From an uncultured Gemmatimonadota bacterium (GTDB lineage: Bacteria > Gemmatimonadota > Gemmatimonadetes > Gemmatimonadales > Gemmatimonadaceae), in NCBI GenBank assembly GCA_902826615.1, contig CADEFN010000005.1, positions 1 through 64,000 on the forward strand: 64,000 bases of DNA, read 5' to 3'. The position numbers and the translations under genes are program-made. How positions within the stretch are numbered: position 1 is the first letter of the stretch; every line of letters starts with the position of its first letter. The notes below the pieces were generated by a model that was not told the DNA's origin, searched no databases, and worked only from the letters and a program-made list of their open reading frames with translations. This document shows positions 38,834 to 56,011 of the stretch, piece by piece.

Positions 38834-38837
38834 CTGG

Positions 38838-39641
38838 TCAGGCGGGTTCGGTAAGCCGGTCGCCGGCGAGGTTGACGGCCAGCGCGGTGACGAAGATGGC
38901 GAGCCCCGGAAAGAGCGCGAGCCATGGCTCGGACGTCATGCTCCCCTGGGCCTGGTAGAGCATGTTGCCCCAGCTCGCGGCGGGTGGCTGCACGCCGACC
39001 CCAAAGAAGGAGAGCGCACTTTCCATGAGCATGCTTCTGCCCACCGCGAGTGTGGCGGAGACCACCACCAGGTGCATGACGTTGGGCAGGAGGTGCCGCC
39101 GCAGGATGCCGGGGCGTGAGAGTCCGAGGGCGCTCGCCGCTTCCACAAAGCCGCGGGTGACGAGGGAGAGCGTTTCGGCCCGCACGACCCGCGCGGTTTC
39201 CATCCACCCCACCGCCGCAACCAGAACGATGAGCAGCGGAATGGAAGGTTGAAGAATGGCCGCGAGGATCATCAACAGCGGGAGGCGCGGTACCGCCAGC
39301 ACGGTGTCAGTGAGCCGCATGAGGGCGGCGTCGATGCGTCCGCCGGCAAAGCCGGCCACGGCGCCTACAGCAGCACCTAACGCCGATGAGAGCAGGGCCG
39401 CCAGCAGACCGATGGCCAGCGAGACCCTCGCGCCATGCAGCACCCGAGTCAGCACATCACGCCCGAGGTCATCAGTGCCGAACCAGTGGGTGGCCGACGG
39501 TGCCTGACGACGAAGGGTGAGGTCGCTGGCATCCACGGCATAGGGTGACAGCAAGGGTGCGATCAGTGCGATGACAAGGCAGGCACCCACAACAACCGCC
39601 ATCCGGCGGAACGCGGCCCGGTCCGCTGGTGCGCCACTCAT
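38838..39641 (-). CDS. ABC transporter permease, DppC/OppC type
   Basis: A 267-residue permease. The start (FRRMAVVVGACLVIALIAPLLSPY) and HWFGTDDLGRDVLTRVLHGARVSLAIG are characteristic of the DppC group. The cytoplasmic EAA loop is EAASALGLSRPGILRRHLLPN. There are six hydrophobic segments. The ATG overlaps the DppB-type stop (ATGA). It is the last gene of a five-gene operon with no ATPase gene in the window. Confidence 0.93.
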   Translation of the reverse strand: MSGAPADRAAFRRMAVVVGACLVIALIAPLLSPYAVDASDLTLRRQAPSATHWFGTDDLGRDVLTRVLHGARVSLAIGLLAALLSSALGAAVGAVAGFAGGRIDAALMRLTDTVLAVPRLPLLMILAAILQPSIPLLIVLVAAVGWMETARVVRAETLSLVTRGFVEAASALGLSRPGILRRHLLPNVMHLVVVSATLAVGRSMLMESALSFFGVGVQPPAASWGNMLYQAQGSMTSEPWLALFPGLAIFVTALAVNLAGDRLTEPA

Positions 39642-40579
39642 GACCGCACCCGTGGATCGAGGAGACGATACGACAGGTCGGCCACGAGGTTGAGCACCAC
39701 AACAGCGGTGCTCGACAACATGAGAAAAGCCATCAGCACCGTGTAGTCACGGCGGGCGAGGGCTTCGGTGAAGAGCCCGCCGAGGCCGGGCCAGGCAAAG
39801 ACACTCTCCGTGACCACGGCACCGGAAACCATGATGGCGGCATCCAGCAGGACAACGGTGGCAAAGGGCAGGAGGGCATTGCGCAGCGCATGATATCGGA
39901 CGCGTCGCTCCGGCAGGCCACGTCCGCGTGCGGCGAGCACAAAGCGCTGAGAGAGCACCTGACCCATGGCACTGCGCAGGTACCGTGTCCAGGCGGCCGC
40001 ATGCAGCAGGGCCAGAACAGTGGCCGGCAGCACCAGGTGTTGCAGCCGGTCTCCGAATCCGGACGAGAGGAGCGATGTACGCCCTGACGACGGAAGCCAG
40101 CCAAGCCACACCGCAAAGACGAGCTGCAGTAGGAGGCCGAACCAGAACGCCGGCAGGGAAATACCCGCCACCGTGAGTGTCACAATGGCGCGGTCCACGG
40201 CGCTACGACGCCGCACTGCGGCGATCACGCCGGTGGGGAGTGTGATCAGCAGCGCCACCACCAGCGAGGCCGTCACCAGCTCGAGGGTGGCGGGGAGCCG
40301 CTCCAGAATCCGCGTCATGACCGGGCGCCCATCGCTGAACGAGAACCCCCAGTCACCCGTGACAAAACCCGCGAGCCACGAGAGGTATTGCACCGGGAGG
40401 GGCCGGTCGAGACCTAACGAGCGGCGCAGACGCTCGAGATCGGCCGGTGTGACGTTGGGGTTCTCGAGGTAGATGGCGAGAGGGCCGCCGGGCGCCAAAT
40501 GAATCAGCGCAAACACCAGGATGGAGATCAGCAGGAGAAGCGGCACCGCCTGCAGAATCCTGCGGAGCGTCGCCGTCAC
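39638..40579 (-). CDS. ABC transporter permease, DppB/OppB type
   Basis: A 313-residue permease of normal length with six helices. The N-terminal FALIHLAPGGPLAIYL is the DppB signature, and the loop ARGRGLPERRVRYHALRNALLPFATV is the EAA motif for contact with the ATPase. It follows the substrate-binding gene after 67 bp and is coupled to DppC by ATGA. Confidence 0.93.
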   Translation of the reverse strand: MTATLRRILQAVPLLLLISILVFALIHLAPGGPLAIYLENPNVTPADLERLRRSLGLDRPLPVQYLSWLAGFVTGDWGFSFSDGRPVMTRILERLPATLELVTASLVVALLITLPTGVIAAVRRRSAVDRAIVTLTVAGISLPAFWFGLLLQLVFAVWLGWLPSSGRTSLLSSGFGDRLQHLVLPATVLALLHAAAWTRYLRSAMGQVLSQRFVLAARGRGLPERRVRYHALRNALLPFATVVLLDAAIMVSGAVVTESVFAWPGLGGLFTEALARRDYTVLMAFLMLSSTAVVVLNLVADLSYRLLDPRVRS

Positions 40580-40646
40580 GTAACCCGAAGGCGCGCCGGT
40601 CCGCCGTCAACGCCCCGCAGCCTGCCGCCCTCGGTCGCAATGCTGC

Positions 40647-42260
40647 TCACGGCAGCTCCCACTCCCACACGTTCCAGAACACCCCGGTATTGGTGGGATT
40701 CCCCTTGAACCCCTTGAGGGTGCTCGGCACGCCATCGAGCCGTGTGACGTTGTACAGGGGGATTTCCGGGGCCAGTTCGGCCAGGAGTTGCTGCGCCTCA
40801 ACCAGAAGTTTTCGGCGCTTTGTCTGGTCGATCTCACGATCGGACGCGTACATCACACGGTCCAGCGCAGCATCGTTCACGTAGTTGATGTTGCGGCCGG
40901 CGGGCGGGGTGCGATCGGAGGCAAAAAACAGCGTGATCTCCGGATCGGCAGGCATGTGCCACCAGTGCAGCATGGCATCGAAGTTCCCCTCGAACCAGAG
41001 CGACGAAATGGAGGTGCCATCGACGAGCTGCACCTTCATGTCGACGCCCACGTCCTTGAGCATGCGCTGCACGGCCTGCGAAACACTCTCCCGAATCGCG
41101 AACCCGGCCTGTGTCAGCAGGGTGAACGAAAGCGGCTTGCCATCCCGGTCGCGAATACCGTCGCCATTGCTGTCCTTCCACCCTGCCTCGTCGAGGAGTG
41201 AGGCTGCGGCAGCCTTGTCAAACGGGTAGGTGCGAACGCTGTCCGTAAAGGCCCACGACAACGGCTGGATGGGCCCATGGATCACCGGAGCCAGGGAGTC
41301 GAGGATGGTCCGTGCGATGAGCTCGCGGTCAATGGCGTGTGTGAGGGCACGCCGCACCCGCACATCCTGAAACGCGACCACACGCCGCTGGTTGAGCGTG
41401 ATGTGTTCGTACGAGTTCCCCATCATCTGATGAATCTTCAGACCCGGTGTGTCCTTGAGACGCCGGTACTGATCCCACGGCACCAGCGCCACGATGTGCG
41501 CTTCACCACTCGCGAGTTGGTTGACCCGCGTGGTGGTATTCGGGATGAACTTGAACTGGATCCGTTTGATCCTGGGATACTCGGCACCACGCCAGTAATC
41601 GGGGACGCGCTCGAGCAGGATGTATTCACCGGTTTTCCATTCGGCTACGCGATACGGTCCCGTGCCTAACGGCTTGCGGTTGTAGTCCTGCGCCTGGTCG
41701 ATGTTGCGTCCGGCCAGCAGATGTTTCGGCAGGGCCCCGCGCACAAACTGCAGTTCGTAGGGAGCGTATGGTTCCTTGTAGTGCACCACCGCGGTGAGTG
41801 AGTCGGGTGTGTCAACGGACGTGATGCGGTCAAAGCCATCGGTACTCTCGGGGTTGTAGTCCGGCGAGTTGATGGCATCCACCGTGAACTTCACGTCCGC
41901 CGAGGTGAAGGGGACGCCGTCGTGCCACTTGATGCCGGGCCGGATTTTCCAGGTGACGTCCATGCCGCCATCGGGGCGCAGGACGACGTCTCCGTTCTCC
42001 AGTGTCGGCACCCGCTCCGCCAGCAGCGGCACCACGCGCATCTGTTCATCGTTGGTCACCAGCCCCTCGATGACACAGGTCTGCACATCTTCGAGGATGT
42101 GCGTGCTGAACCGGTTGAGGGTGTCCGGCTCGCGATCGTACCCCACCACGAGGAGTTCATTCGACGGTCCCGAGGTGCGTGCGCCCTCTTTCGCGCAACT
42201 CAGCAGCAGGGCGCCCATGACGAGCGCGCCGACGCGCGACACCTTGTGCATCCACATCAT
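40647..42260 (-). CDS. Dipeptide/oligopeptide-type ABC substrate-binding lipoprotein
   Basis: A 537-residue extracellular solute-binding protein of family 5. A lipoprotein signal with LLLSC anchors it. Family features include VTWKIRPGIKWHDGVPFTSADVKFTVDAI, GTGPYRVAEWKTGEYILLERVPDYW and VRRALTHAIDRELIARTIL. It binds peptides or related small molecules for the DppB/C pair encoded downstream. It overlaps the DUF885 gene stop by 4 bp. Met4 is an alternative start. Confidence 0.92.
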   Translation of the reverse strand: MMWMHKVSRVGALVMGALLLSCAKEGARTSGPSNELLVVGYDREPDTLNRFSTHILEDVQTCVIEGLVTNDEQMRVVPLLAERVPTLENGDVVLRPDGGMDVTWKIRPGIKWHDGVPFTSADVKFTVDAINSPDYNPESTDGFDRITSVDTPDSLTAVVHYKEPYAPYELQFVRGALPKHLLAGRNIDQAQDYNRKPLGTGPYRVAEWKTGEYILLERVPDYWRGAEYPRIKRIQFKFIPNTTTRVNQLASGEAHIVALVPWDQYRRLKDTPGLKIHQMMGNSYEHITLNQRRVVAFQDVRVRRALTHAIDRELIARTILDSLAPVIHGPIQPLSWAFTDSVRTYPFDKAAAASLLDEAGWKDSNGDGIRDRDGKPLSFTLLTQAGFAIRESVSQAVQRMLKDVGVDMKVQLVDGTSISSLWFEGNFDAMLHWWHMPADPEITLFFASDRTPPAGRNINYVNDAALDRVMYASDREIDQTKRRKLLVEAQQLLAELAPEIPLYNVTRLDGVPSTLKGFKGNPTNTGVFWNVWEWELP

Positions 42261-43930
42261 TCCGACTCCAGCATGAGACGACTGATCAGTGCGACGGGGA
42301 GCGAGCCATGTGCCAGAAAAGCGTCGTGAAAACGCTGCAGCGAAAAGGCGTTGCCCTCGCGCTGCGAGACGGCGTGCCGCAGCGTGTGGACGCCCTGCGT
42401 GCCTAACCAGTACATGACGGCGGTTCCGGGGAACATCGAGTTCTTCACCACCTCCGAGCGTGCGGCGTCCACCGTCATGCCGACCTCGTCGACGTAGACG
42501 CGCATCGCCTCGTCAAAGGTCAGACGGCCGCCATGGAAGCCCAGATCCACCCGCGCCCGCGCCAGAATCCTCACCCGGGTGTGCTGCTCGGCCACGCGTT
42601 CGTCGGTGGTGAGAAAGCCTGCTTCGTCCATGAGGTCGGTGGCATAACAGGCCCAGCCTTCCGCCATCGTTCCACCCTGCAGCATGGCAATGCGGCTGGC
42701 ACAATCGGTGGCGGCAATGCGCCCGATGCGCGAGGGGCTCCGTGCCGCGTGCCAATTCTGTACGTGGTGGCCTAACGCGCCGTGGTGCACGACATGGTTG
42801 AGTTTGATCACCGAGTCGTTCCACGACGAGAGCAGACGGTTCTGCGCGGCGCTGTCGAGTCCGTCGATGGGTGTGACGACATACTCGTGAGGCAGCACCG
42901 TATCGAGCGGGGCGGGGGAGCGATAGTACAGGTAGTACAGCGACGGCGCTGCCATGCGTGTCCAGGCCGGAATGGGCACGTAGCGAATGGGGAAGTCGGG
43001 CCAGGTGACCAGCCGTTGTTCCTCTGCCACCTGGCGGCACTCGTCCCACACGCGGGCAAAGGCCCCCAGATACTCACCCGGTGTAGGGCGGCGCGCTGCG
43101 AGTCGCTCATTGATCTCCGCCATCGATGCCGCGCCGGCCTGGCGGATCATCGTCCCCAGGCGGCTGGACTCTTCGGCAAATCTCTCGTCCGCCTCACGAC
43201 TCAGCTCGTCAGGCGCAGTATCTACCCAGTGGCCAAGCGCAATACAGGCTGCAAGCATCTCGGCGCCGGCGGACGGCGCTTCGTCGGTAGTGGAGTTCAG
43301 CGCGGAGATGGTCAGCCGGAAGCCCGACATGGCGCCGGCGGCGAGATGCGCCGCTTCAGTAACCGCGTTGCTGTGCTCGGGTGTGAGACCCATGGCACTG
43401 CACCAGAGCGGAATCCCCTCGAGGAGGAGCCGCTCGGTGGCCTCGGATTCTCGTACCGCGCGCGCCTGCCACGATGGTGGGAGTGGTGCTTCGGCGAGTG
43501 TGGACGATGCCCCGGCCAAAAAGGCCGGCACCTGCCGCAGTCGCTGCAGCAGCCATGAGGCGCGCTGCTCTGCGGGGAGAAAGTCCCGCGTGATCAGTCC
43601 AATGATGGCAAAGGCGGTCTCACCGGCGACAAGTGACGGATTGCCACGGGTGAAGTGACGCCCGGAGAGCTCGAGCAGCGAGATGTCGGCATGCGCAGCC
43701 GCGAGTGCGAGATCGATGTCTTCCCATGCACCGGCCGCTGGCGTGGCAGGCCCTGTCGCGCGAATAGCGTCCACTGCTGCGCGCCACGCACCCGTGGCTC
43801 GCTCGTGACCGGCCCGGGACCAGTCGGGGAGCCGGTGGTCGTGTGTGTGCATGCCGATGAACGTGGCGTCCACCGGCCGGATGGCGTACAGGGTATCAAA
43901 GAACTGGTCGAGCGCGGCGGTGCGGGTCAC
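42257..43930 (-). CDS. DUF885 family protein with altered metal site
   Basis: A 557-residue protein of the DUF885 family, thought to be gluzincin-like metallopeptidases. The expected HExxPGHH signature appears as HHGALGHH at residues 382-389 (42764-42787), so the catalytic Glu is His and Pro is Leu. Downstream GGTMAEGWACYATDLMDEAG keeps the usual third-ligand Glu region. GTG start, no signal peptide, and it begins 3 bp after the oxidoreductase stop. It is coupled to the peptide-binding-protein gene, suggesting peptide processing or a non-catalytic role. Confidence 0.85.
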   Translation of the reverse strand: MTRTAALDQFFDTLYAIRPVDATFIGMHTHDHRLPDWSRAGHERATGAWRAAVDAIRATGPATPAAGAWEDIDLALAAAHADISLLELSGRHFTRGNPSLVAGETAFAIIGLITRDFLPAEQRASWLLQRLRQVPAFLAGASSTLAEAPLPPSWQARAVRESEATERLLLEGIPLWCSAMGLTPEHSNAVTEAAHLAAGAMSGFRLTISALNSTTDEAPSAGAEMLAACIALGHWVDTAPDELSREADERFAEESSRLGTMIRQAGAASMAEINERLAARRPTPGEYLGAFARVWDECRQVAEEQRLVTWPDFPIRYVPIPAWTRMAAPSLYYLYYRSPAPLDTVLPHEYVVTPIDGLDSAAQNRLLSSWNDSVIKLNHVVHHGALGHHVQNWHAARSPSRIGRIAATDCASRIAMLQGGTMAEGWACYATDLMDEAGFLTTDERVAEQHTRVRILARARVDLGFHGGRLTFDEAMRVYVDEVGMTVDAARSEVVKNSMFPGTAVMYWLGTQGVHTLRHAVSQREGNAFSLQRFHDAFLAHGSLPVALISRLMLESE

Positions 43931-43933
43931 TCG

Positions 43934-45067
43934 TCAGGCGCCGAGTGGAAGGCTCACCCACCGCCGCTCGCGGAAGGAGTGTTCCACGGCGTTGATCACC
44001 TCCTGCACCCGGGCACCGTCCATGAAGTCACCTTCGTTGTCGGCCGCGGGAGACTGCACTTCACCCACAAACGAGGAGATGAGGTTTGCGTAGAACAGTG
44101 TGCGCCACGTTTCGCCCTTGTGACCGCCTGGCGGATAGAACTCGGGTGGCACCACCAGTTCCTTGAACTCCACGGCGTCGGGTTTGGCGGCCCGCAGCAC
44201 CTCGCAGACCCCGAACTCCTCAACCAGCCGGCAAATGAGCGCTCCCTCACTGCCGTACACTCGGGCCTCGATGCCGGGGTAGTTGCCCACGGTCACAAAC
44301 GAGGTCTGCACGCTGCCTAACGCCCCATTGGCAAACTCGCCGATGAAAATGTCGCCATCGTCGATGTTCATGCGCATCATGCGACCGGTCGCCCGCACCA
44401 TGCGTTCCGGGATGAAGTTGCGCATGGTGCCAACCACTTCCTGGAACGCACTCCCCACGGCCCACATGCCGATGTCGATGATGGGCGCGCCGTACCCTTC
44501 CAGCGACGACACCTGAAGCACCGACTGATCGGCGTCGGGGTCCACCTGACGCAGCGGATTCATGGGGTCGAGCCACTGCGAGTTCTGCTCGTAGCCGTTG
44601 AAGATGAAGGGCGTGCCGATGAACCCCTGATCGATGAGCGACTTCATGTACCGCATCGCCGGAGCATACCGGAACGTGAAGCCGAGTTTCGTCTTGAGAC
44701 CACGAGATCGGGCGAACTCGGCCGCGCGGATGGTCTCGCGGTAGTCAAAGGCGACCGGCTTTTCGCAGAGCACGTGCTTCCCGGCCTCGAGCGCCGCCCA
44801 GGACAGATCGAAGTGCGTGGCTGAGGGGGTGCAGACGTCAATCAGATCGATGTCGTCGCGGTCGAGCAACGCCCGGTGGTCGGTTGCCACGGTCTTGATG
44901 CCGAACTCGGTGGCCAGCGACTCGGCGAACCCGGGTTGCGGGTCACAAATGGCGACCACCTCGCAGCGTGGGTCGCGGAGGAAGCCTGGAACGTGAGCCA
45001 GCCGGGCCCATGCGCCAGCGCCGAGAACGCCTACACGAACCTTTCTTGCGGGGTCGACGTGGGGCAC
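43934..45067 (-). CDS. Gfo/Idh/MocA-family oxidoreductase
   Basis: A 377-residue NAD(P)-dependent oxidoreductase. The N-terminal Rossmann motif is VGVLGAGAWARLAHVPGF, and the EKP signature is in HVLCEKPVAFDYRE near residue 100. The C-terminal alpha/beta domain (GFTFRYAPAMRYMKSLID) closes the substrate site. The GTG at 45067 sits eight codons before KVRVGVLGAG; the frame extends further upstream without recognisable sequence. It heads a five-gene operon with DUF885 and a Dpp-type transporter. The substrate, often a sugar or cyclitol in this family, is not readable. Confidence 0.87.
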   Translation of the reverse strand: MPHVDPARKVRVGVLGAGAWARLAHVPGFLRDPRCEVVAICDPQPGFAESLATEFGIKTVATDHRALLDRDDIDLIDVCTPSATHFDLSWAALEAGKHVLCEKPVAFDYRETIRAAEFARSRGLKTKLGFTFRYAPAMRYMKSLIDQGFIGTPFIFNGYEQNSQWLDPMNPLRQVDPDADQSVLQVSSLEGYGAPIIDIGMWAVGSAFQEVVGTMRNFIPERMVRATGRMMRMNIDDGDIFIGEFANGALGSVQTSFVTVGNYPGIEARVYGSEGALICRLVEEFGVCEVLRAAKPDAVEFKELVVPPEFYPPGGHKGETWRTLFYANLISSFVGEVQSPAADNEGDFMDGARVQEVINAVEHSFRERRWVSLPLGA

Positions 45068-45204
45068 AAATCCGGGGTGAGGGGGTGAGACGAGTGGCCA
45101 GTGGCGGGCGCGCCAATGTATTCGTCTACCGTGAGCGCAGCCAGACAATTCCTGCCGTCGTGAGCGCTACCTTTCCTGTTGTACCACTGAGCCCAATCCC
45201 CGGA

Positions 45205-45771
45205 ATGCATTTCACACGATTGTCCCGCGTCGCGCTCCTGCTCCCTCTCTGCCTCCCGCTGTTCGCCTGCGGCCGTGAGGACGCTGGGGCGAAGGTTGCG
45301 CGTCAGATGACGGCGCAGCAGCGCCGCCTGAACAATCGGGCGCGCGCCATCGGTGGAATAGGCGCCGGGTCGCGGGCGGTGTCAGAGCAGATGGATACCG
45401 CGGTGCACCTCCCCTTTGCGCGCATTGCGGGATATGTGGTACGTGGCACTGATGAGTTCTCGTTCAAGGCCTGTGGATCCAATCGCGTGCATTACGTGCG
45501 CCTCTCACCCATGGCCGCCGCCAAGGTGATTCAGCAGTACCGGTTCCGTTCGCCGCAGCCTCTGTCGCCGGTGTACTTCACCTTCAAGGCGCGCATCGTG
45601 GACGACACCGTGCGGATAGGCGAGCACGAATATCGCTCGGTCGTGGAGGTGCTCGAGATGACCAATGGTCGCGACGAAACACCTGATTGTGCCAAGCCGG
45701 GCTACGGAAGTTTTGTCGCAAGCACCGCCGCCGCCAGAACCACGCGTTCGTCAGGCGGCGACGTTCCCTGA
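45205..45771 (+). CDS. Hypothetical lipoprotein
   Basis: A 188-residue protein with a lipoprotein signal (LLLPLCLPLFACGRED). The rest is mixed alpha/beta with no domain I recognise; two Cys residues (SFKACGS and TPDCAKP) could form a disulfide. The ATG at 45205 is chosen for the signal; the longer frame overlaps the divergent oxidoreductase. Its 3' end overlaps the opposite-strand VanZ-like gene by 21 bp. Function unknown. Confidence 0.65.
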   Translation: MHFTRLSRVALLLPLCLPLFACGREDAGAKVARQMTAQQRRLNNRARAIGGIGAGSRAVSEQMDTAVHLPFARIAGYVVRGTDEFSFKACGSNRVHYVRLSPMAAAKVIQQYRFRSPQPLSPVYFTFKARIVDDTVRIGEHEYRSVVEVLEMTNGRDETPDCAKPGYGSFVASTAAARTTRSSGGDVP

Positions 45772-47046
45772 GGGGAGGTTCGTCACGCGGGCCGCAGCGG
45801 GGCGACTGCGTGAGATCAGGAGCAGGATGTGACGCCGCTGCAGATGGTAGAGCCAGGCACCGTACAGCCCTGCCCCAAACACCAGTAGCATCCTTGCGGC
45901 ACTCGCCCCCAGCTCAGGCTCGAATCCCCGCAGCAGTTCGATCATCAGCGCGCCGCCGCCTAACGCTACGCTGAGCCTCAGCAGGGCGGTGCGAAAGCGC
46001 GTCTCCACACGACCGCGGTGTTCGGCGACCGCATACCCGGCGAGGGTGAATGCCGCCACGAGTTCGAGCAGCCGGAGGATCTCCACCCTCGACCATTCGC
46101 TGGCCACGCCCGGAAAGCCGAGATCGCCGCGCCAGGGACCCATTCCGCTCGCCAACGGGCCGCCGGCCAGCATGAGGAGGTAGGCCACAAAGGCCGGGAG
46201 CGCGGTCACAAGAACGGCGATTTCGTAACGGCGATCGGGCCGAGGCTCGCTGCCACGACTGCCACGCCACCAGGCCAGGGCACTCGCGGTGACAACTCCC
46301 GCCGCGACAAAGAGGGGTTTGCTGGCGAGCAGTGGGAAGCTTCCGGCCAGGTACCAGATTCCGGCGCCGCCAACCGCGGTGCGCAGTGGCAGCTGCCGAT
46401 CCGGACCAAAGTGGTTTCGCTGCAGGCCGCCGACCACAGAGCCACCGAACACGGCAATCAGGAGCGAGAGGAGCGCATGCTGATCGTCTCCCCCGTTGGC
46501 CAGGGCATTCAGCCACAGGAGGGGGATCATGAGGTAGACGAGCCCCATGAGGGGCAACTCGAGCGAAAGGCGACCGACCACTTCTTCGTCGCGGCCCAGG
46601 CGCCCACTCGCCCAATCGGCTGCGGCGGCGCCCAGCCATGCCCCGGCCGCGTTGGCAAGCACATCGTACAGGGAGGAGTACCGTTCCACCTCGAAGAGCT
46701 GGGTCACCTCGATAGTGGCCGAAATGACCGCTCCCACCCACAGGACCCGTAGTACCGAGTGGCGCCGGTGATGACGGGTGGCGAGCCGATACAGAAAGCC
46801 AAGGGGGAGGAAAAGCAGGACGTTGGCCACGACGTCGAGCGTCGTACCCTCCCACATGATGCGCCAGGCGTCGGGCCGGGCGAATCGAAAGGGCAGAAGG
46901 GTGATGATCAATGTGATCCCCACCATGTACCCGAGGATCGCTAACCCCAATCTTGACAGAGATTTAGCCGAGATATCCGGGTTGCCCCGTGGTCCGGGTG
47001 TTGCAGTGGGGACTGAGGGCGGGGTGGTGAACGGGGTGGCGGGCAC
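45751..47046 (-). CDS. VanZ-like multi-pass membrane protein
   Basis: A 431-residue membrane protein with about 11 hydrophobic segments. The N-terminal 150 residues resemble VanZ: ITLLPFRFARP, DVVANVLLFLPLGFLYRLA, EVTQLFEVERYSSLYDVLANAAGAWLG. The C-terminal part is additional helices of unknown type. VanZ-like proteins often accompany exosortase loci, and this gene is divergent from an exosortase. The start is GTG without a clear ribosome site, so the N-terminus is uncertain. Confidence 0.75.
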   Translation of the reverse strand: MPATPFTTPPSVPTATPGPRGNPDISAKSLSRLGLAILGYMVGITLIITLLPFRFARPDAWRIMWEGTTLDVVANVLLFLPLGFLYRLATRHHRRHSVLRVLWVGAVISATIEVTQLFEVERYSSLYDVLANAAGAWLGAAAADWASGRLGRDEEVVGRLSLELPLMGLVYLMIPLLWLNALANGGDDQHALLSLLIAVFGGSVVGGLQRNHFGPDRQLPLRTAVGGAGIWYLAGSFPLLASKPLFVAAGVVTASALAWWRGSRGSEPRPDRRYEIAVLVTALPAFVAYLLMLAGGPLASGMGPWRGDLGFPGVASEWSRVEILRLLELVAAFTLAGYAVAEHRGRVETRFRTALLRLSVALGGGALMIELLRGFEPELGASAARMLLVFGAGLYGAWLYHLQRRHILLLISRSRPAAARVTNLPSGNVAA

Positions 47047-47142
47047 GTCGAAGGGCTGAATTTCGCGTGAGTATCGGCAGGAGTGATCGTCTTTCTGTTG
47101 TCACCCCGAGCTTCAGCCCGGGACCGCATCTTTTTCACGGCA

Positions 47143-48012
47143 ATGACCAGCATCGCTTCAACCACAAGACAGCTCCCGGCGGCCCCACTGCTGCTCGCTC
47201 TGACTGGTGCGGCATTCGTCGCACTGTTCGCGCAGCCGATGGTGAACACCGCCATCACCTGGTGGAACGATCCCGACGCCGGGCACGGCCTGCTGCTCGC
47301 GCCTCTCGCGGTCTGGCTGGCCTGGAAAGCGGGGCGCGCGCCCAACTCGGCGTCGCAGCCGCTCCTGGGGATCGCCATGATTTTTGTGGCCATCGTCTTC
47401 CGGTACGTGGCCGCACTGGCCGCTGAGGCATTTGTCGGGCGCGCTGCGATGCTGCTCGCACTCGGCGGTCTCGTGGTCTGGGGATGGGGCTGGCGGCAAT
47501 TGCTCCATTGGTGGCTCCCCACGCTCCTCATCGGGCTCTCCATCCCGCTTCCCGAAATCATTCTGGGATCACTCGCGCTGCCGCTGCAGTTCCAGGCGTC
47601 GAAACTTGGCGCTGCCATGCTCAGCACTCGCGGCATCCCCGTGCATCTCGATGGCAATGTCATCCGGCTCCCCGGCCATGACCTGTTTGTGACTGAGGCT
47701 TGTTCGGGGCTGCGCTCCCTCACCGCACTTCTGAGTCTGGGTGTGCTGCTTGGTGGCCTCATGCTGCGACATCCCGTAACGCGAGTCGCGATTGTGGCGC
47801 TCTCGATTCCCGTGGCCGTCCTGGTGAATGGTGTTCGCGTATTCGGCACCGGTTTCCTGGTGGCCTTTGTGGACCCCAAACTCGCCGAGGGTTTTTCGCA
47901 CATGACCGAAGGTTGGCTGCTCTTCGTGGTGGCCTTCGCGATTCTCGCCGTCATCACCTGGGGTGCCGTTCGTGTCGAGCAGCGCTGGCTCGGGGAGGCC
48001 TCCAATGCGTAA
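47143..48012 (+). CDS. Exosortase
   Basis: A 289-residue membrane protein with about eight helices. The exosortase triad is complete: Cys187 in TEACSGLRSL, Arg232 in LVNGVRVFG and His253 in SHMTEGW. LPTLLIGLSIPLPEIILGSLALPLQFQASKLGAAML precedes them as in the family. Exosortases cleave and process proteins with C-terminal sorting signals. The ATG at 47143 is preferred to an upstream in-frame Met. Its stop overlaps the EpsI start by 8 bp. No sorting-signal protein is visible in the window. Confidence 0.93.
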   Translation: MTSIASTTRQLPAAPLLLALTGAAFVALFAQPMVNTAITWWNDPDAGHGLLLAPLAVWLAWKAGRAPNSASQPLLGIAMIFVAIVFRYVAALAAEAFVGRAAMLLALGGLVVWGWGWRQLLHWWLPTLLIGLSIPLPEIILGSLALPLQFQASKLGAAMLSTRGIPVHLDGNVIRLPGHDLFVTEACSGLRSLTALLSLGVLLGGLMLRHPVTRVAIVALSIPVAVLVNGVRVFGTGFLVAFVDPKLAEGFSHMTEGWLLFVVAFAILAVITWGAVRVEQRWLGEASNA

Positions 48013-48682
48013 ATGGCAGCAGGTCGCACCCCTCGCGGTGCTGGCGCTGGGAGGAGCTCTGGTGGCAAGTGCCGGTCGCCAGGAAGAGGCTGTACTGGAT
48101 CGTCCCCTGCGTGACCTCCCGCGCAGCATTGCCGGAGTACCAGGAGAGGAGCGTCCCCTGACCGCTGAAGAGATTCAGGTCGCCGGGGTCAGTGACTACC
48201 TCTTTCGGATCTTCCGGCAGGACTCGGTGCGAGCCTTCTCGGTGTACGTGGGCTACTACGAGTCGCAGGCTACGGGCAAGGCCATCCATTCTCCGCGTAA
48301 CTGCCTTCCGGGCGCCGGCTGGCAGGTGGTCGAGGCGGGCCAGAAAGCGTTAGGCATGGATGGTCAGCAGGTGACGGTGAACAGCTACATCATCGCCAAT
48401 GGTCCGGCGCAGGCGGTGGTGTTCTACTGGTATCAGGGGCGCGGTCGTGTGGCGCACTCTGAATACTCGGTGAAGTGGGACCTCCTGCGTGACGCCGCCA
48501 CGCGTGGGCGCACGGAAGAAGCGCTGGTGCGGATCATGGTGCCGATCCCACCCTCGCGTGGCTTCAACGCGACGGACTGGGCGTCGCGTCGTGGCGAGGC
48601 GGAAGGGTTGGCCAGTGAAGTGGCGATGGAGATGCTCCCCCTGCTCAAGCGGGCGCTCCCGGGGTGGACGTCGCAGACGTAG
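48005..48682 (+). CDS. EpsI-family (exosortase-associated) protein
   Basis: A 225-residue EpsI/DUF3485-type protein. A single N-terminal helix anchors it (VAPLAVLALGGALVASAG). The domain contains the SPRNCLPGAGWQ motif with its conserved Cys, and VVFYWYQGRGRVAHSEYSVKWDLL near the end. EpsI domains occur beside or fused to exosortases and may assist exopolysaccharide or protein export. It overlaps the exosortase stop, so both are co-translated. Confidence 0.9.
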   Translation: MRKWQQVAPLAVLALGGALVASAGRQEEAVLDRPLRDLPRSIAGVPGEERPLTAEEIQVAGVSDYLFRIFRQDSVRAFSVYVGYYESQATGKAIHSPRNCLPGAGWQVVEAGQKALGMDGQQVTVNSYIIANGPAQAVVFYWYQGRGRVAHSEYSVKWDLLRDAATRGRTEEALVRIMVPIPPSRGFNATDWASRRGEAEGLASEVAMEMLPLLKRALPGWTSQT

Positions 48683-48765
48683 GGCTGAGATGGCGGCTGG
48701 CATGACGGAACAGGGAGTGAGCACCTCCGCTTAACTCCGCCGCGACGGCGCCGATACTCTCGGGC

Positions 48766-49434
48766 ATGCCCTCTGTGCGTACCCTGCTCGCGCTCTCTGT
48801 TCTCCTTGCCGGCTGCGGCAAGGAGGCCGTAGTTGTCCAGACGCCCGGCTCCCTGGTCATGGTCCAGGGCAACCTGCAGTCCATTCAGGGTGGTCAGGAA
48901 CTCCCGAACCCCGTAGTTGTGCGGCTGCTCGATACCGACGGCAAACCCATCGAGAAAGTTGCGGTCGGCTTCAGCGTGGTGATTGGTGGTGGGGCGGTGA
49001 ACCCGGGCAGCGTCTTCACCGATGAAAACGGTGAGGCGCGCACCAAGTGGACACTTGGCGTCGCGGATGCAAACCAGGTGCTGCAGGCGCGGGCCCCCGG
49101 GCTCGACCCGCTCAGCATCAACGCCACCGCCCTGCTGCCCTCGGATATCGTGGTCGCCCAGGGGAACAATCAGACGGCCAAGCCCAGTGGCCCGCTGCCC
49201 AACCCGATCGTGATCCGCGTCGTGGGCCCCAACAACGCACCGATGAAGGGCATCGCGGTGGCCTTTCAGGTCGTGACAGGTGGCGGGCTCATTTCGCCGC
49301 AGTCGGGCCTCACCAATGCGTTAGGTGAGGTGACGGCACGGTGGACCCTGGGCTCCGGCACGGGGGCACAAACCATCGCCGTCTCGTCAGGCAGTCTTCA
49401 GCCGATTTCGCTGCTCGCGGTCGCGGTGCCCTGA
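48766..49434 (+). CDS. Lipoprotein with two Ig-like (Big-type) domains
   Basis: A 222-residue lipoprotein (VLLAGCGKE). Two related Ig-like repeats follow, each with QG-N, LPNP-V-VRV, a glycine-rich strand (VGFSVVIGGGAVNPGS and VAFQVVTGGGLISPQS) and EARTKWTLG or EVTARWTLG. They match bacterial Ig-like group 1 domains used as surface adhesins or spacers. It follows the exosortase-EpsI pair by 83 bp but lacks a sorting signal. Its last 37 bp overlap the opposing glycerophosphodiesterase gene. Confidence 0.8.
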   Translation: MPSVRTLLALSVLLAGCGKEAVVVQTPGSLVMVQGNLQSIQGGQELPNPVVVRLLDTDGKPIEKVAVGFSVVIGGGAVNPGSVFTDENGEARTKWTLGVADANQVLQARAPGLDPLSINATALLPSDIVVAQGNNQTAKPSGPLPNPIVIRVVGPNNAPMKGIAVAFQVVTGGGLISPQSGLTNALGEVTARWTLGSGTGAQTIAVSSGSLQPISLLAVAVP

Positions 49435-50219
49435 CCCAGTGTGGCCAGAGCCCGAGCGATCGGGCCTGGATCGTCGCTGAGCACACCGTGAACCCCGCGG
49501 CGCCACAGCCGCACGGCCGATGTTGCATGGTTCACAACCCAGACGTGCATGGTGGCTCCCGCGGGCGCCGCGGCGGCGGCGAGTGCGCCCACCGGCACGG
49601 GAATTCCCTTGAAGAAGCGCGGCAGACTCATCGCGGCAAAGGGGAGCGTGCCATACCGGCGCCCAAACAGCGAAGGCAGGTAGAGCGCCTGCATCTCCCT
49701 GATGCTCGCCAGGCGCGGCACACTGTGCGTTCGCAACACGGCATGTACGTCTTCCTGAAACGACCCAGCCACACACCGTGCGATGGCCCCGGTGCGTTCC
49801 AGCAGCTCGGCGGTTGGGCCCGCCGCTTCTCGCACCTTGATCTCCACCATCATCGGCACGCCGGGGAGCTGCTCGATGACCTCCTCCAGCCGAGACACGG
49901 TGATGCCTCGTCCACGCCACGGCCAGGTGAGGCCCGAATCGGGTGTGAAGTGAGCGCCGGCATCGAGGGTACGCAGCTGCGCCCACGATGCCGCGGCGAC
50001 CGCGCCACTGCCGCTGGTGGTCCGCTCGAGTGTGGCGTCGTGAAAGACGACCACTTCCCCATCACTCGTCAGGCGCACATCGAGCTCCAAACCGTCGGCA
50101 CCGGCGGCCAGCGCCTGGCGGAACGACTCCATTGTGTTCTCGGGTGCGTGCGCCGAATTGCCCCGATGCCCGATCACGAGACGTCGTGAGGTGTCGAGGA
50201 GTGGATTCGGCGCGCGCAT
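49398..50219 (-). CDS. Glycerophosphodiester phosphodiesterase
   Basis: A 273-residue GDPD enzyme. The catalytic start HRGNSAHAPENTMESFRQALAAGADGLELDVRLTSDGEVVVFHD carries both histidines and the metal-binding Glu/Asp. The C-terminal WVVNHATSAVRLWRRGVHGVLSDDP is the family ending. It hydrolyses glycerophosphodiesters to glycerol-3-phosphate and alcohols. No signal peptide is evident. It overlaps the end of the opposing Ig-like gene. Confidence 0.9.
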   Translation of the reverse strand: MRAPNPLLDTSRRLVIGHRGNSAHAPENTMESFRQALAAGADGLELDVRLTSDGEVVVFHDATLERTTSGSGAVAAASWAQLRTLDAGAHFTPDSGLTWPWRGRGITVSRLEEVIEQLPGVPMMVEIKVREAAGPTAELLERTGAIARCVAGSFQEDVHAVLRTHSVPRLASIREMQALYLPSLFGRRYGTLPFAAMSLPRFFKGIPVPVGALAAAAAPAGATMHVWVVNHATSAVRLWRRGVHGVLSDDPGPIARALATLGQGTATASSEIG

Positions 50220-50228
50220 GGGTCCAAA

Positions 50229-50260
50229 GAAAAAGCGGCCGGCCCCGAAAGGCCAGCCGC
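50229..50260 (-). terminator. Rho-independent terminator after the TonB-dependent receptor
   Basis: On the minus strand GCGGCTGGCC, loop TTTCGG, GGCCGGCCGC (stem 50260-50235, one mismatch) is followed by TTTTTCTTT. It lies 23 bp beyond the receptor stop and before the glycerophosphodiesterase start. This is the clearest intrinsic terminator in the window. Confidence 0.85.
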
Positions 50261-50282
50261 TGATCCCCGGGAATGTCCCGAC

Positions 50283-53078
50283 CTAGAACGTGTACTGCAG
50301 ACGGGTCATGACGAGGCGACCCATCGGCGCAACTCCAACGAACGACTGCCGTTCATTGTTGAGGACGTTGGTGGCATTGATGGACCAGCGCACCTGACTG
50401 GCCACCGGGAGCTTCCAGGAGAAGCCAAGGTCAAGGAACATGCTGACCGGCACGCCGGGGTAGCGTACGCCACTGCCAATGCCGAGGGAGTTGAAGACGC
50501 CGGAGTTGACCTGGAAGGCGTCCATGTACCGCCCGCGGATTTCTGTGCTCATGCCCCGCGCCTGGTTGGCATAACGCAACGCGGTGGTGCCCCGATGTTT
50601 CGGGGTGTTGGCCACGAGTGGATTGGCCGCGCTGGCGCCCGGGGCGTCGGGGAAGATGTTATCGCTGAGATATGAGTACGTCCCCTCCAGCGACCACTTG
50701 TCGTTGAGCAGGAAGTCGGCGGCGAGGTCGAGCCCGCTGACGTTCACGTAGCCTGCAGCATTCTGGTAGGAGAAGACGAGATACGAGCTATCGTACAACG
50801 GCGAATCGAAGGCGGCCGCGCCGACCGGCAATGCCGCCATGATCGGCGTGAGGGCGGCAGCTGCCTGCTGCCCGAGTGCCGGATTCCGTGTGGCCGTTCC
50901 GACCTGGGTGCCGATGTAGGTAGCCAGCTGGGTGGGGTTGAACAGCACCCCGGGATTGATGATTTGCGAGGTCGGGTCGGCGGGGCGGCGCTGGAACCAG
51001 AGGTCGGCCGCGAGGCGGACCTTCTCGTTGAAGAGCCCTTTGTACCCGACCTCCCACGTGTTGGAGAAGTTGGCGCCTAACGGGGCATAGTCCGTGGGGG
51101 CGCTTGTCATCGGCTGACGGGTGTTGAGGTCGAGCAGGACCGAGCCGATATCTGCAGGCGTGGGACGCAGGCCACCGAGAATCGGTCCGAGCTGCGCGAG
51201 AAGGCCGAGGAGCTGCTGGCGGGCGGTTTCGCCGCCGGCGCCAAAGGTGCTCACCGGGAGCCCTCGAATGATGTTGGGGAGTGCCGCGATCAGACCGGGA
51301 AATGCCGCCGTGGCCGTGGCGGGCTGCACGCCGGGGACATAGGGCGAACGCATGCACAGTCCACCGGCACAACTGCGGTTGAAGTTCCAGCCCTGCTTGG
51401 GCGGGTTCCCCATGATCTGCACCGGGAGACCCGGGGCCGGTGTGGTGCCGGAGAACTGGTCGAGGAAGAACGAGAACGATGCCGGTGAACCAAACGCGCG
51501 ATTGAAGGTGACGCGGAAGTTCTGATTGGGCGTGGCCTTGAAGACCAGGGCGGCGCGCGGCGAGAACTGCGAACCGTCGATGCGCGAGTTCATGTCGCCA
51601 CGGATGGCGGCCAGGAAGTCGAGTTTGCTGGTGAGGCTCGTGGTGGTCTGGATGTAGGCGCCCGCTTCGTTGATGTCGTCGTCGGCGTCGTTGCGCCCAT
51701 TGATGGTGCCTTCGGTCTCGGGGCGAGTGGCGATGTACTCACCGCCAACCACCACACGCGTGCGGCCGATATCCAGCGCCTGCTGCAGCTGGCCGACCAG
51801 GACACTCGATCGGTCCACCACGGGAATGCCGGTACGGAGGTAGTAGGTGCCGGCGTCGTCGGTGGCGCTGCTATTGCCAGCGTCGGAGGCGTTGTAGAAC
51901 ACCTGGGCAAAGAACTTCTTGTGACGGAAGCGCTGCTGCAGGTTGAGATACGACCAGTTCTTCACCTGCGCGGCACCGAACGTGGTGGTGATTTCCATCG
52001 CGCTCCCGATCTGCGAGTAGCCGAGCGAGGAAATGATTTCGGTGTCGTCGTTGGGGCGGAAGTCGAGTCGGGCCTCGCCCGACATCTTCTCGAGGCCGAA
52101 GTCGCGGGCATTGGCCTGGCCGCGGCGCGAGGCCGGCACGCGCGTATCCGTGGCGGAGAACCTCGACGGTTCGTTCGGGTCGATGTACTCGAAATCGTTG
52201 GCGGTGAAATACTCGCCGGAAACCTTGTAGCCTACCTTGCCATTGCTGCTCGCTCCCGCCGTGCGGAGGCCGGCACGCAAGAGTGAGCGCTCGCCGCCAT
52301 CGAGGGTGATGGACGTGCCCTGCGACTGGAACGGCGACTTGGTGATGACATGCAGCACGCCATTGCCCGAGTTGGGACCATAGAGCGCGGCGGCCGGTCC
52401 CTGCAGCACCTCGATACGGTCGATATCGTCGCCCGTTCCGGTGAAGAGGAACGGCACGTTGACCCGCAGCGATGGCACACCGGCAAAACGATAGTCCTGG
52501 AGCATCAGCATCTGCGTGGAGAACGCATTGTTGAATCCACGCGAGACGATATTGGATTGCACGATGCCGCCGTTGGAGATCGACAGACCAGGGGACGACT
52601 TGAGGTGGTCGGTCACCGTCACCGCCGAACGCTCGGCGATCCGCTCGGCCGTCACGACGGAGATGGAGTTGGGAGAGTCGAGGATCTTCTCGGGTTCGGC
52701 ACCGCGGGTGGCGGTGGTCACCACGGGGTTGAGCGCCGTGGCAATCGAGAGGAGCCCGATATCGAGCGTCGTGGTGTTGCCGGCGGTCACGACGATGTTA
52801 TCGAGTCGCTTGGCGCCAAAACCGATTCGTGCGACCGACACCGTGTACGACCCCGCGGCGAGGTTGGCCGCCCGGTACGTCCCGTCTTCTCTGCTGAGGA
52901 CGGAGGCGGCGATCTGACCACCTCCCCCGAGCACCTGAACACGTGCCCCACCAATGGGAGCGGCACCATCCGCGTTGCTTACGGTACCAGCAATAGTGCC
53001 GGCTTGGGCAAAGACAGCTGGCGGAGCCACAAACGCGGCAAGTGCCAGTACATACCTGCTGACTCGTTTGACGAGCAT
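50283..53078 (-). CDS. TonB-dependent receptor
   Basis: A 931-residue outer-membrane receptor. A signal peptide ends near AVFAQA, a carboxypeptidase-regulatory-like domain (AGTIAGTVSNADGAAPIGGARVQVL) covers about 25-105, and the plug follows (LDSPNSISVVTAERIAER..VLQGPAAALYGPNSGNGVLHVITK). The beta-barrel ends with the expected aromatic terminus (RLQYTF). It imports a large substrate with TonB energy, identity unknown. ATG 53078 has AGAGGA eight bases upstream; longer starts read through the promoter region. Confidence 0.93.
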   Translation of the reverse strand: MLVKRVSRYVLALAAFVAPPAVFAQAGTIAGTVSNADGAAPIGGARVQVLGGGGQIAASVLSREDGTYRAANLAAGSYTVSVARIGFGAKRLDNIVVTAGNTTTLDIGLLSIATALNPVVTTATRGAEPEKILDSPNSISVVTAERIAERSAVTVTDHLKSSPGLSISNGGIVQSNIVSRGFNNAFSTQMLMLQDYRFAGVPSLRVNVPFLFTGTGDDIDRIEVLQGPAAALYGPNSGNGVLHVITKSPFQSQGTSITLDGGERSLLRAGLRTAGASSNGKVGYKVSGEYFTANDFEYIDPNEPSRFSATDTRVPASRRGQANARDFGLEKMSGEARLDFRPNDDTEIISSLGYSQIGSAMEITTTFGAAQVKNWSYLNLQQRFRHKKFFAQVFYNASDAGNSSATDDAGTYYLRTGIPVVDRSSVLVGQLQQALDIGRTRVVVGGEYIATRPETEGTINGRNDADDDINEAGAYIQTTTSLTSKLDFLAAIRGDMNSRIDGSQFSPRAALVFKATPNQNFRVTFNRAFGSPASFSFFLDQFSGTTPAPGLPVQIMGNPPKQGWNFNRSCAGGLCMRSPYVPGVQPATATAAFPGLIAALPNIIRGLPVSTFGAGGETARQQLLGLLAQLGPILGGLRPTPADIGSVLLDLNTRQPMTSAPTDYAPLGANFSNTWEVGYKGLFNEKVRLAADLWFQRRPADPTSQIINPGVLFNPTQLATYIGTQVGTATRNPALGQQAAAALTPIMAALPVGAAAFDSPLYDSSYLVFSYQNAAGYVNVSGLDLAADFLLNDKWSLEGTYSYLSDNIFPDAPGASAANPLVANTPKHRGTTALRYANQARGMSTEIRGRYMDAFQVNSGVFNSLGIGSGVRYPGVPVSMFLDLGFSWKLPVASQVRWSINATNVLNNERQSFVGVAPMGRLVMTRLQYTF

Positions 53079-53205
53079 CAGGATTCCTCTCATCAGTGGG
53101 TGTGGTCGTGCTTTGGGGTGCGCCAAAATATCCCCCTCGGACCGAAACCAGCTAGGCTTTCCTGTGCGGTGAATCACGTTCAGGAAAACTCCCCACAAAC
53201 CCGGC

Positions 53206-53424
53206 TCAGTTCGAGGTGGGACGAACCGTCGCGGTATGGGCTACTTCATCCAGGTCGACGAAGTGACCGGCGCGGGCCTTCCATTGCTCGAAGGGGAGTT
53301 CAAATGCACTCTCACCGGGAAGAACGTGAACCACACTCCTCGCGGCCAGCCCATCAGGACCATCCACCCACCACCGGATAGACACGGCGCCGGTACGCTC
53401 CAGCTTTATGTAGGCGTGTCTCAC
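53206..53424 (-). CDS. Possible small hypothetical protein
   Basis: A 72-residue open frame with a GTG start (53424) on the minus strand, between the TonB-dependent receptor and the next plus-strand gene. The sequence is compact (KLERTGAVSIRWWVDGPDGLAARSVVHVLPG) and reads like a beta-rich protein. Third positions are only about two-thirds GC, lower than nearby genes, and no homologue is recognised. It may be a real small gene or chance. Confidence 0.35.
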   Translation of the reverse strand: MRHAYIKLERTGAVSIRWWVDGPDGLAARSVVHVLPGESAFELPFEQWKARAGHFVDLDEVAHTATVRPTSN

Positions 53425-53501
53425 AGATTGGGCGGCGCAACTGAGTGCGGGTGGTTGCCACGTTCAATCGCTGAATAGCCCCCTGTCTCGGATAGTTCCA
53501 G

Positions 53502-54077
53502 ATGCTGTTTTTGCGGCCATCCTTCCAAAGAACACCCTGGGTCTTGGGGCTGGTCGTGCTGATTGGTGCCCGGCCGGTCGCCGCGCAGGAGGACGACGTA
53601 ACGGTCTGGCGCGCCATGGTGGGAAATACCGCCGTGGAGCTTCATGTGGTGCCCTCCACCGTGCGGGCCGGCTTTGCCGGGGACTCCGCCAGCGTCACCC
53701 TCGCTCTTCGGGCAGGGGACCTCAAGCGGGCGGCTGACTCCATTGGCGTATTGCTGCGCTCCCGAAGAACCCCACTTCCGGGATGGTCCCTGCGGGTGGA
53801 AGAACCCGGCGTGCGGGAGGGAACACTGGTGCTCGGCTCTCCGGCGCCAAGAAAGGGGAAGGCGCGGGTGTACACCCTCTTCGCCTCCGACGACCCCCTC
53901 GGGGGCGTCCGTGACACGCTGACTCACGGGGAGCTCTACTTGCTCGTCCGGAAACTGCGCGAGGCGGCTCGTGTGGCTAGCCCCGCCCCTGCTGCGCGAA
54001 AGGCGCCTCCCTCCCGGGCTCCGAAGGGGCGCCCGAAGGCTGCTCCGAAGAAGAAGGGTGCCGCCTCCAAACCGTGA
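53502..54077 (+). CDS. Hypothetical secreted protein with basic tail
   Basis: A 191-residue protein with a signal peptide (VLGLVVLIGARPVAAQ). A central domain of unknown type (residues about 30-150) is followed by a Lys/Ala/Pro-rich tail (KAPPSRAPKGRPKAAPKKKGAASKP) that may bind polyanions. No family recognised. The minus-strand frame below overlaps its 3' end. Confidence 0.6.
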   Translation: MLFLRPSFQRTPWVLGLVVLIGARPVAAQEDDVTVWRAMVGNTAVELHVVPSTVRAGFAGDSASVTLALRAGDLKRAADSIGVLLRSRRTPLPGWSLRVEEPGVREGTLVLGSPAPRKGKARVYTLFASDDPLGGVRDTLTHGELYLLVRKLREAARVASPAPAARKAPPSRAPKGRPKAAPKKKGAASKP

Positions 54078-54186
54078 GGATTGCAGCGGCGGCCAAGGCG
54101 ACCACCACGGCGAGCGCCGCCCATAGCCGTGGGACACTGATCGGGAAGGGCAGCTCGCGCGGTGGTGGGTGGCGCCCGGAGGGCAT
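53977..54186 (-). CDS. Possible small single-helix membrane protein
   Basis: A minus-strand frame of 69 residues (ATG at 54186) containing one hydrophobic helix, LWAALAVVVALAAAAILTVW, flanked by basic residues. In the part not overlapping the plus-strand gene, about 32 of 38 codons end in G or C, as in real genes here. It overlaps the preceding plus-strand gene by about 100 bp, no homologue is recognised, and a TTG further upstream is also possible. Low certainty. Confidence 0.3.
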   Translation of the reverse strand: MPSGRHPPPRELPFPISVPRLWAALAVVVALAAAAILTVWRRHPSSSEQPSGAPSEPGREAPFAQQGRG

Positions 54187-54256
54187 GGAAGGGGACGAGG
54201 GGGTCAGGTGACGGAGAATGGTGCCGAGACTCAAAGTGTCGTCTCCGTCCCCGTGA

Positions 54257-56011
54257 ATGAGTAGCCTGGCCGCACAGCACCGATCGCGTCCCTCCGGGGA
54301 TCGCGACAACCGCCCCCCCGACGAACCGTCCGCGCTCGACCTGCGGATGCGGCAAATCCTTGCCCAGGCGGATTTTCCCGCCATCTCCAAGGACGCCCTC
54401 GACGCGCTCAAGGCGATGCCGGATGACGATGCCTCGCTGCAGCGTCTCGCGAACATCGTGCTGCGGGAGTATGCGCTGACGCTCAAGGTCATCCGCACAT
54501 CGAATAGTGCGTACTACAAACGCGGCGGGCAGCAGGTGCAAAGCGCCGCCCACGCCATGCTGTTGCTGGGGGCACGCACGGTGCGGCACCTGGCGGCGAG
54601 CTTGCTGGTCTTCGATCACTATCGCAAGCGCTCGCCCGGGCTCAAGGAACTGATGCTCATGAGCATGCTCACGGCCAATCATGCCCGTGAGCTGGCGATG
54701 CTGCGCAAACTGCCGGACCCCGAAGAGGCGCATCTGGCGGGGATGTTCCGCAACCTGGGTGAAGTGCTGGTGGCCGGGTACTTCGCGCGGGACTACGCGC
54801 GCATCATCAACCTGATCGAGGGGGGCCGCAAAACGGCGGCGCTCGCCGCCTTCGATGTCCTGGGCTTCACCTTCGAGGATCTCGGCGAAGCGATGGCGCG
54901 GCACTGGGGCATGCCCGAGCCGGTGGTGGCGTGTATGCGCGCCGATAGTCCCGCTGGCAACACTGAGTTGGGCTCCGTGATTGCGTGCGCGCATGAACTC
55001 ACGACCGCGGTGTATCGTCGGGATCGTGACGCACGCACGGATGGCGTGAGTGAGGTGATGACCCGCTACTCCAAAGTTCTCAAGCTCACACGCGACGACG
55101 CCTCGGCGGTCGTGCGCGCCGCGTTGCGCGAGACCAAGGAAACCTTCGCCAGTGCCAAGGTCAGCGTGGACGACCTGCGGCTGCGCAAACAACACGATGC
55201 CGCCATCAACGAACTCGGTGGCTGGGTCGGCACAGCCACGCCGGCGGGGACTGCCGCGGTGGACGAGTTCAGCGCCACCCTCGCCCTGCGCCGCGAGCTC
55301 TCCGAAGAGGCACGGCGGGCGGCGGAACCCGGGTCGGGCGAAGACCTCAACCGCGTGATCCTCACGACGCTGGAAGCGATCTATCGCGGGGGACCGTTCG
55401 AGCGTGTGGTCTTCTGTGTCATGTCCCCGGAGGGCACGGCGATCAAGGCACGTTTCGGTCTGGGCACCGCGGTGGAGTCGTTGCTGGACAAGTTCAGCTA
55501 TGAGCTCACCCCACGTGATGGACCGGTGGCTGTGGCCATGTTGCGCCGGCAGAGCGTCTATGTGCCTGTCGATCGCGACTTCACTGCCCAGGAGCTGCGC
55601 TTTGCCCAAGCATTGGGAGCAGGGAGCTTCGGGATTTTCCCGGTGGTCGTGTCGGGTCGTCTGATTGGCTGCGTGTATTGCGACCGCCCCTGGAACGCGC
55701 GGCTTCCTGACAAACCGACCGTCGCCTTTGTGCGAGAGATTTGCGACGATGCCATGAAGGGGATTGCCGCGCGTCAGTCGGGAACGCCGGTGGCCTTGAC
55801 TCTGCAGGAACCCCGTCGCCCGACACCACTCGTCAATCGCACTACGCCCTTGTATGCCGCCACGGTCAAAAGCGACGCCGTGTTGCGCGTGCTGAAGGGG
55901 GAAGCGGTCGCTGAGGTGGCGGCGCAGCTTGCCGTTCCGCCGGAAAAACTCGAAGGGTGGCGCAAGGATTTTCTTGCGGCGGCCATGGAAGGGATCAAGG
56001 CGAAGGGTTAG
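54257..56011 (+). CDS. HDOD-GAF signalling protein
   Basis: A 584-residue soluble protein. An HDOD domain (about residues 25-240: DFPAISKDALDALKAMPDDDASLQRLANIVLREYALTLKVIRTSNSAYY) is followed by a GAF-like domain (about 330-500, VNRVILTTLEAIYRGGPFERVVFCVMSP onwards). A short C-terminal helical motif (EAVAEVAAQLAVPPEKLEGWRKDF) may be a DNA- or protein-binding helix pair. HDOD proteins act in c-di-GMP and stress signalling. The catalytic HD residues are replaced, as is usual for HDOD. Confidence 0.88.
   Translation: MSSLAAQHRSRPSGDRDNRPPDEPSALDLRMRQILAQADFPAISKDALDALKAMPDDDASLQRLANIVLREYALTLKVIRTSNSAYYKRGGQQVQSAAHAMLLLGARTVRHLAASLLVFDHYRKRSPGLKELMLMSMLTANHARELAMLRKLPDPEEAHLAGMFRNLGEVLVAGYFARDYARIINLIEGGRKTAALAAFDVLGFTFEDLGEAMARHWGMPEPVVACMRADSPAGNTELGSVIACAHELTTAVYRRDRDARTDGVSEVMTRYSKVLKLTRDDASAVVRAALRETKETFASAKVSVDDLRLRKQHDAAINELGGWVGTATPAGTAAVDEFSATLALRRELSEEARRAAEPGSGEDLNRVILTTLEAIYRGGPFERVVFCVMSPEGTAIKARFGLGTAVESLLDKFSYELTPRDGPVAVAMLRRQSVYVPVDRDFTAQELRFAQALGAGSFGIFPVVVSGRLIGCVYCDRPWNARLPDKPTVAFVREICDDAMKGIAARQSGTPVALTLQEPRRPTPLVNRTTPLYAATVKSDAVLRVLKGEAVAEVAAQLAVPPEKLEGWRKDFLAAAMEGIKAKG

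Follow-up and report, generated by a model that had tools for sequence, protein, structure and literature searches.

We analysed a window of 64,000 nucleotides (positions 1 to 64,000 of contig CADEFN010000005.1, assembly GCA_902826615.1) from an uncultured bacterium of the Gemmatimonadaceae, phylum Gemmatimonadota, which carries a gene for an exosortase. The exosortase gene is on the forward strand at 47143-48012 and encodes 289 amino acids from the ATG at 47143, in a reading frame that is open from a GTG at 47083. The protein scored 203.3 bits with PF09721 (cut-off 25.7) and 139.5 bits with TIGR02602 (cut-off 105.55). Cys187, Arg232, and His253, which we take to be the catalytic residues of exosortases, are all present, and when counted from this ATG they have the numbers given in an earlier, sequence-only reading of the window. 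When the protein was aligned with 32 relatives, the Cys and the Arg were conserved in 33/33 sequences and the His in 32/33, the remaining one having Asn. The gene for an EpsI (DUF3485) partner follows on the same strand (48005-48682, 225 amino acids from the ATG at 48005, frame open from a GTG at 47963; PF11984 144.4 bits, cut-off 26.1; TIGR02914 104.2 bits, cut-off 42.8). Behind EpsI, also on the forward strand, is a lipoprotein gene of 222 codons (48766-49434) with two Big_1-type Ig-like stretches (PF02369 53.1 bits, cut-off 34.9) and the lipobox LLAGC, read by eye. On the other side, a VanZ-like membrane protein of 431 amino acids is encoded on the reverse strand (45751-47046; PF04892 58.9 bits, cut-off 30.1), and 96 bases (47047-47142) separate its start codon from the ATG of the exosortase. 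The sequence-only reading had described the complete triad, the divergent VanZ-like gene, the overlap of EpsI with the exosortase stop (8 bases by coordinates, with the ATG start), and the Ig-like lipoprotein after EpsI, and all of these were borne out.

The same reading stated that no protein of the window ends in a PEP-CTERM-type tail and that the substrates are elsewhere or have a different tail type. A genome search for C-terminal tails, which it had suggested as a check, was carried out on the source genome (5.9 Mb in 98 contigs, 99% complete; the window is C5:1-64000 in our contig numbering) with TIGR02595, PF07589, VPLPA-CTERM, and a profile of the genome's own tails. Four tails were over the TIGR02595 cut-off, at C2:862223, C3:359415, C1:612043, and C2:519813, scoring 28.3, 27.5, 24.9, and 21.6 bits in the genome search and 26.2, 25.5, 20.9, and 18.8 bits on the proteins. 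They end, in frame, proteins of the usual PEP-CTERM make-up, with a PEP motif, a hydrophobic stretch, and a basic end, and each of the four proteins has a signal-like stretch at its N-terminus, as judged by eye. The profile made from the four tails recovered the same four in the genome, and its next match had an E-value of only 0.53. Inside the window there was no match to TIGR02595, PF07589, or the own-tail profile; a loose regular expression listed many of its open reading frames (ORFs), none of which has a PEP-CTERM tail by eye. Hence the statement about the window was correct and the substrates do lie elsewhere, while there is no need to assume a different tail type, since four PEP-CTERM tails exist and no VPLPA-CTERM tail was over the cut-off. 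The best VPLPA-CTERM score (19.2 bits, cut-off 25.35) belonged to one of the four PEP-CTERM proteins. A PF07589 match at C8:17881 was weak and internal to a protein, and was rejected as a tail. An exosortase without substrate was likewise rejected.

We conclude, with a probability of about 0.9, that the gene encodes the single exosortase of an ordinary Gemmatimonadota PEP-CTERM sorting system whose substrates are encoded elsewhere in the genome. Judged by sequence, this assignment draws on the genes of the locus, the triad, the four tails, the lack of a second exosortase (ruled out by the single PF09721 match in the source genome), the co-occurrence in relatives, and a polysaccharide cluster. 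By analogy with the known family, the substrates would leave the cytoplasm through Sec and stay anchored in the inner membrane by a C-terminal tail of PEP motif, hydrophobic helix, and basic cluster. The exosortase, through its Cys, Arg, and His and with the help of EpsI, would then cut at the tail, and the cut protein would be passed toward the surface or the exopolysaccharide. The genes for the four substrates are scattered, and one of them is in a cluster for polysaccharide synthesis and export. With a single sortase, a single EpsI, and four substrates, the system would be a small one, and our literature search found almost nothing on exosortases in this phylum.

The sequence-only reading had held that the locus would be ordinary if a full set of PEP-CTERM proteins were found elsewhere and matched a known exosortase subtype. 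A set was found, albeit a small one of four, but the match to a subtype was not. By the cut-offs of the NCBIfam models, which were our only test of subtype, the protein is a general exosortase and reached no named Xrt subtype. The best-scoring named model was XrtD (TIGR04152, VPLPA-type) with 191.9 bits (cut-off 400), followed by XrtA (TIGR03109) with 157.5 bits (cut-off 208) and XrtW with 139.6 bits (cut-off 425). EpsI matched the rest of the TIGR04152 model with 137.4 bits, so that the two proteins together cover most of it. They differ from XrtD in being encoded by two separate genes, in the score, and in the genome having no VPLPA tail over the cut-off. The scores below every named cut-off and this partial likeness to XrtD, together with the finding of only four PEP-CTERM proteins, might suggest that the exosortase has dedicated substrates whose tail type was not recognised, either in addition to the PEP-CTERM proteins or in their place. 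We consider this improbable. VPLPA-CTERM gave nothing over its cut-off and its best match is itself one of the PEP-CTERM proteins. The exosortases of ten relatives also reach no named cut-off, only the general TIGR02602, and six of these ten (L094, L096, L101, L103, L107, and L099) are from genomes with 4 to 45 PEP-CTERM matches.

The pairing of exosortase and PEP-CTERM proteins was also seen in a set of 99 related genomes (G000 to G098, with the source genome as G000), in which 33 have an exosortase and 43 have a PEP_CTERM match at our threshold of E<=0.05. Both were found in 32 genomes, only the exosortase in one, only PEP_CTERM in 11, and neither in 55 (Fisher 1.6e-15); counted by genus, the numbers are 20, 1, 6, and 31 (2.2e-9). 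None of 14 control genomes has a match at this threshold. The sole exception among the exosortase genomes, G006, carries an ORF with a PEP-CTERM tail beside its exosortase (L087, 8896-9510), which the search had missed and which was found afterwards by eye. By eye, PEP-CTERM genes are near the exosortase in 6 of the 33 neighbourhoods (L087, L088, L097, L104, L105, and L113). The genomes whose exosortase is linked to a VanZ-like gene have 1 to 4 PEP_CTERM matches and others have up to 57. These low counts could mean that the system is decaying and that the exosortase is a relic with its last few substrates. This is very unlikely, given that the triad and EpsI are intact and that one substrate, the protein with the tail at C2:519813, is conserved, with orthologues 51-90% identical to one another, in each of the five genomes examined from the genus and in G056.

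An ordinary PEP-CTERM system is also expected to be linked to polysaccharide genes, and epsH has been published as nearly always lying among them. The PEP-CTERM gene at C1:612043 is directly before an SLBB/Poly_export gene, and nearby are genes for a sugar transferase, a methyltransferase, an aminotransferase, transketolase halves, a GNVR protein (below cut-off), a glycosyltransferase, and a Wzi homologue. In all nine exosortase loci of the families f2 and f3, the exosortase is next to a sigma-54 response regulator and a Wzz/GNVR gene, and seven of the nine also have a Poly_export gene. The link to exopolysaccharide therefore holds in the source genome, but not at the sortase gene, because the cluster for making and exporting polysaccharide, which holds one substrate gene, is on another contig. 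Thus the system resembles the PEP-CTERM/EpsH system of Gram-negative bacteria in its Cys-Arg-His exosortase, its adjoining EpsI, its PEP-CTERM substrates, and its polysaccharide cluster with a PEP-CTERM gene. It differs in the sortase gene lying apart from the polysaccharide genes in an otherwise ordinary system, in the VanZ-like neighbour and the Ig-like lipoprotein, and in having four substrates only.

Several observations weigh against an ordinary PEP-CTERM system at this locus. The sigma-54 regulator and the polysaccharide gene families of the f2 and f3 loci are absent from the part of the window that was compared (38001-56000), unlike the published rule for epsH. Four substrates are fewer than the median of eight given in PMC1569441, and PF07589 was over its cut-off for only one of the four proteins in the protein search, although for three in the genome search. 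The co-occurrence test handles kinship by the genus count only, and the TIGR02595 cut-off was also passed in 2/14 control genomes at E<=10. Moreover, of the 66 genomes in which no exosortase was matched, 11 nevertheless contain PEP_CTERM matches at E<=0.05, among them G031 (74% complete) with 22 and G039 (90% complete) with 17. G004 (82% complete), which also has a PEP_CTERM match and no exosortase match, holds a true substrate. The match in G014 does not represent a tail, and several of the weak TIGR02595 hits in relatives sit in the interior of other proteins.

The VanZ-like protein may act as a partner of the exosortase. Its VanZ domain spans about residues 48-142 and is followed by a long hydrophobic C-terminal part; a simple hydropathy window gave 8 hydrophobic segments, and NF037970 scored 17.9, just under its cut-off of 20. 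PMC7146870 describes the members of PF04892 as transmembrane proteins whose function is unknown. The six best matches of the extended family (E <= 1.7e-188; G000 to G003, G015, and G056, from three genera) are all divergent to an exosortase, and in each of these six loci a homologue of the Ig-like lipoprotein is behind EpsI. In G056 the two are separated by a PEP-CTERM gene. With presence of the family set at E<=1e-20, 18 of the 99 genomes have both the family and an exosortase, five the family only, 15 the exosortase only, and 61 neither (Fisher 5e-7; by genus 12, 3, 9, and 34, 8e-5). For the family and PEP_CTERM the corresponding numbers are 21, 2, 22, and 54 (9e-8). When the six linked genomes were removed, the family was still found in 12/27 exosortase genomes vs 5/66 others. 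The divergent pairing in three genera and the co-occurrence where the genes are unlinked argue for the protein being a working part of the sorting system, which might, for example, handle the lipid or glycolipid acceptor of the cleaved PEP-CTERM proteins. We regard this role as possible but less likely than not. A necessary role is disfavoured by the absence of the family from 15/33 exosortase genomes, including G030, which is of the same genus as G056; no exosortase was found in the 16 fetched neighbourhoods of unlinked family members; and the statistics ignore the species tree, treating related genomes as if they were independent. Solved-structure searches found no relative of the exosortase, EpsI, or the VanZ-like protein at E<=1, and our literature search found no paper joining exosortase and VanZ. 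The correlation nevertheless offers this family a candidate pathway. A more distant VanZ-domain protein, under the family limit of 1e-20, is encoded about 2.5 kb from the exosortase in G006 (L087, 4421-5416).

The conserved substrate (C2:519273-519896 in the source genome, loci L004 and L191) belongs to a family of its own. A search of named genomes with this protein gave five loci, all in Gemmatimonadetes or Gemmatimonadaceae assemblies. Across 298 genomes of the phylum, a profile of the protein without its tail gave 34 matches, distributed over 31 genomes, and 30 of the 34 were read (L189 to L218). All 30 end in a PEP-CTERM tail. Before the tail, a Cys, an Asp two positions after it, an Ala, a Leu, a Trp, and a late Gln are invariant in 30/30, while the median identity is 26%. 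The mature part has one Cys in 24 members, three in five, and two in one. An exosortase was found in 28 of the 31 genomes with the family vs 54/298 overall (Fisher 3.7e-21), and in G215 the family gene is directly behind Xrt-EpsI (L230). None of 28 family bodies matched Pfam, the NCBIfam models gave three stray weak matches to them, one member each, and a search of solved structures found no credible relative.

The invariant residues recall the thioester domains (TEDs) of Gram-positive adhesins. The motifs given for these domains in PMC4450167 and PMC6194298 are [YFL]C-Phi-zeta with the Cys, a weak PhiQ-zeta-Phi-Phi with the Gln, and a helix TQxxPhiW, of which only the Cys and the Gln are fully conserved. 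The family has its Cys in xC-hydrophobic-D, its Trp in a motif like the QxxPhiW helix, and the late Gln. The residue before the Cys is Y, F, or L in 19/30 members, the Gln position of the helix is Gln in 18, His in 11, and Ser in one, and Glu comes after the late Gln in 26/30. Like the adhesins, the family is secreted and carries a C-terminal sorting signal. It differs in coming from Gram-negative bacteria and in having a tail for an exosortase and not a sortase. The Pfam TED model matched none of the 28 bodies, though it recognised the TED of pLS20. Comparison of the family profile with class II TEDs from nine sequences by hhalign was negative (probability 1.5%, 15 columns aligned around the Cys), no TED was among the solved-structure matches of the family, and a structure predicted from five sequences had a mean pLDDT of 34.9 and was unusable. 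Because Pfam, the profile comparison, solved structures, and structure prediction gave no support, we describe the family as resembling thioester proteins by motif only. It is conceivable, if somewhat doubtful, that Gram-negative Gemmatimonadota display thioester adhesins by exosortase. The family in 31/298 genomes would then have an internal Cys-Gln thioester and bind covalently to surfaces or polysaccharide, and the VanZ-like protein would assist the sorting step. A 2015 survey reports covalent adhesins exclusively from Gram-positive bacteria (PMC4450167), and our literature search found no paper joining PEP-CTERM and "thioester domain". If true, covalent adhesins would also occur on Gram-negative cells, through a different anchoring route.

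Other genes recur around the exosortases. ORFs of 174-274 amino acids that form a family (F5), whose representative had no Pfam match, are near the exosortase in 12 loci (L090, L093, L094, L097, L099, L101, L104, L106, L107, L108, L110, and L111). In the window, a small lipoprotein-like ORF (44968-45771) without a Pfam or NCBIfam match adjoins the VanZ-like gene, and homologues of it are beside the exosortase locus in G001, G002, and G003, with a weaker one in G030. Behind the Ig-like gene is a GDPD-family phosphodiesterase gene (49398-50219). Of the 32 loci of relatives, six (L085, L086, L089, L091, L098, and L105) have a homologue of it close to the exosortase, and two of these six have no VanZ-like gene.

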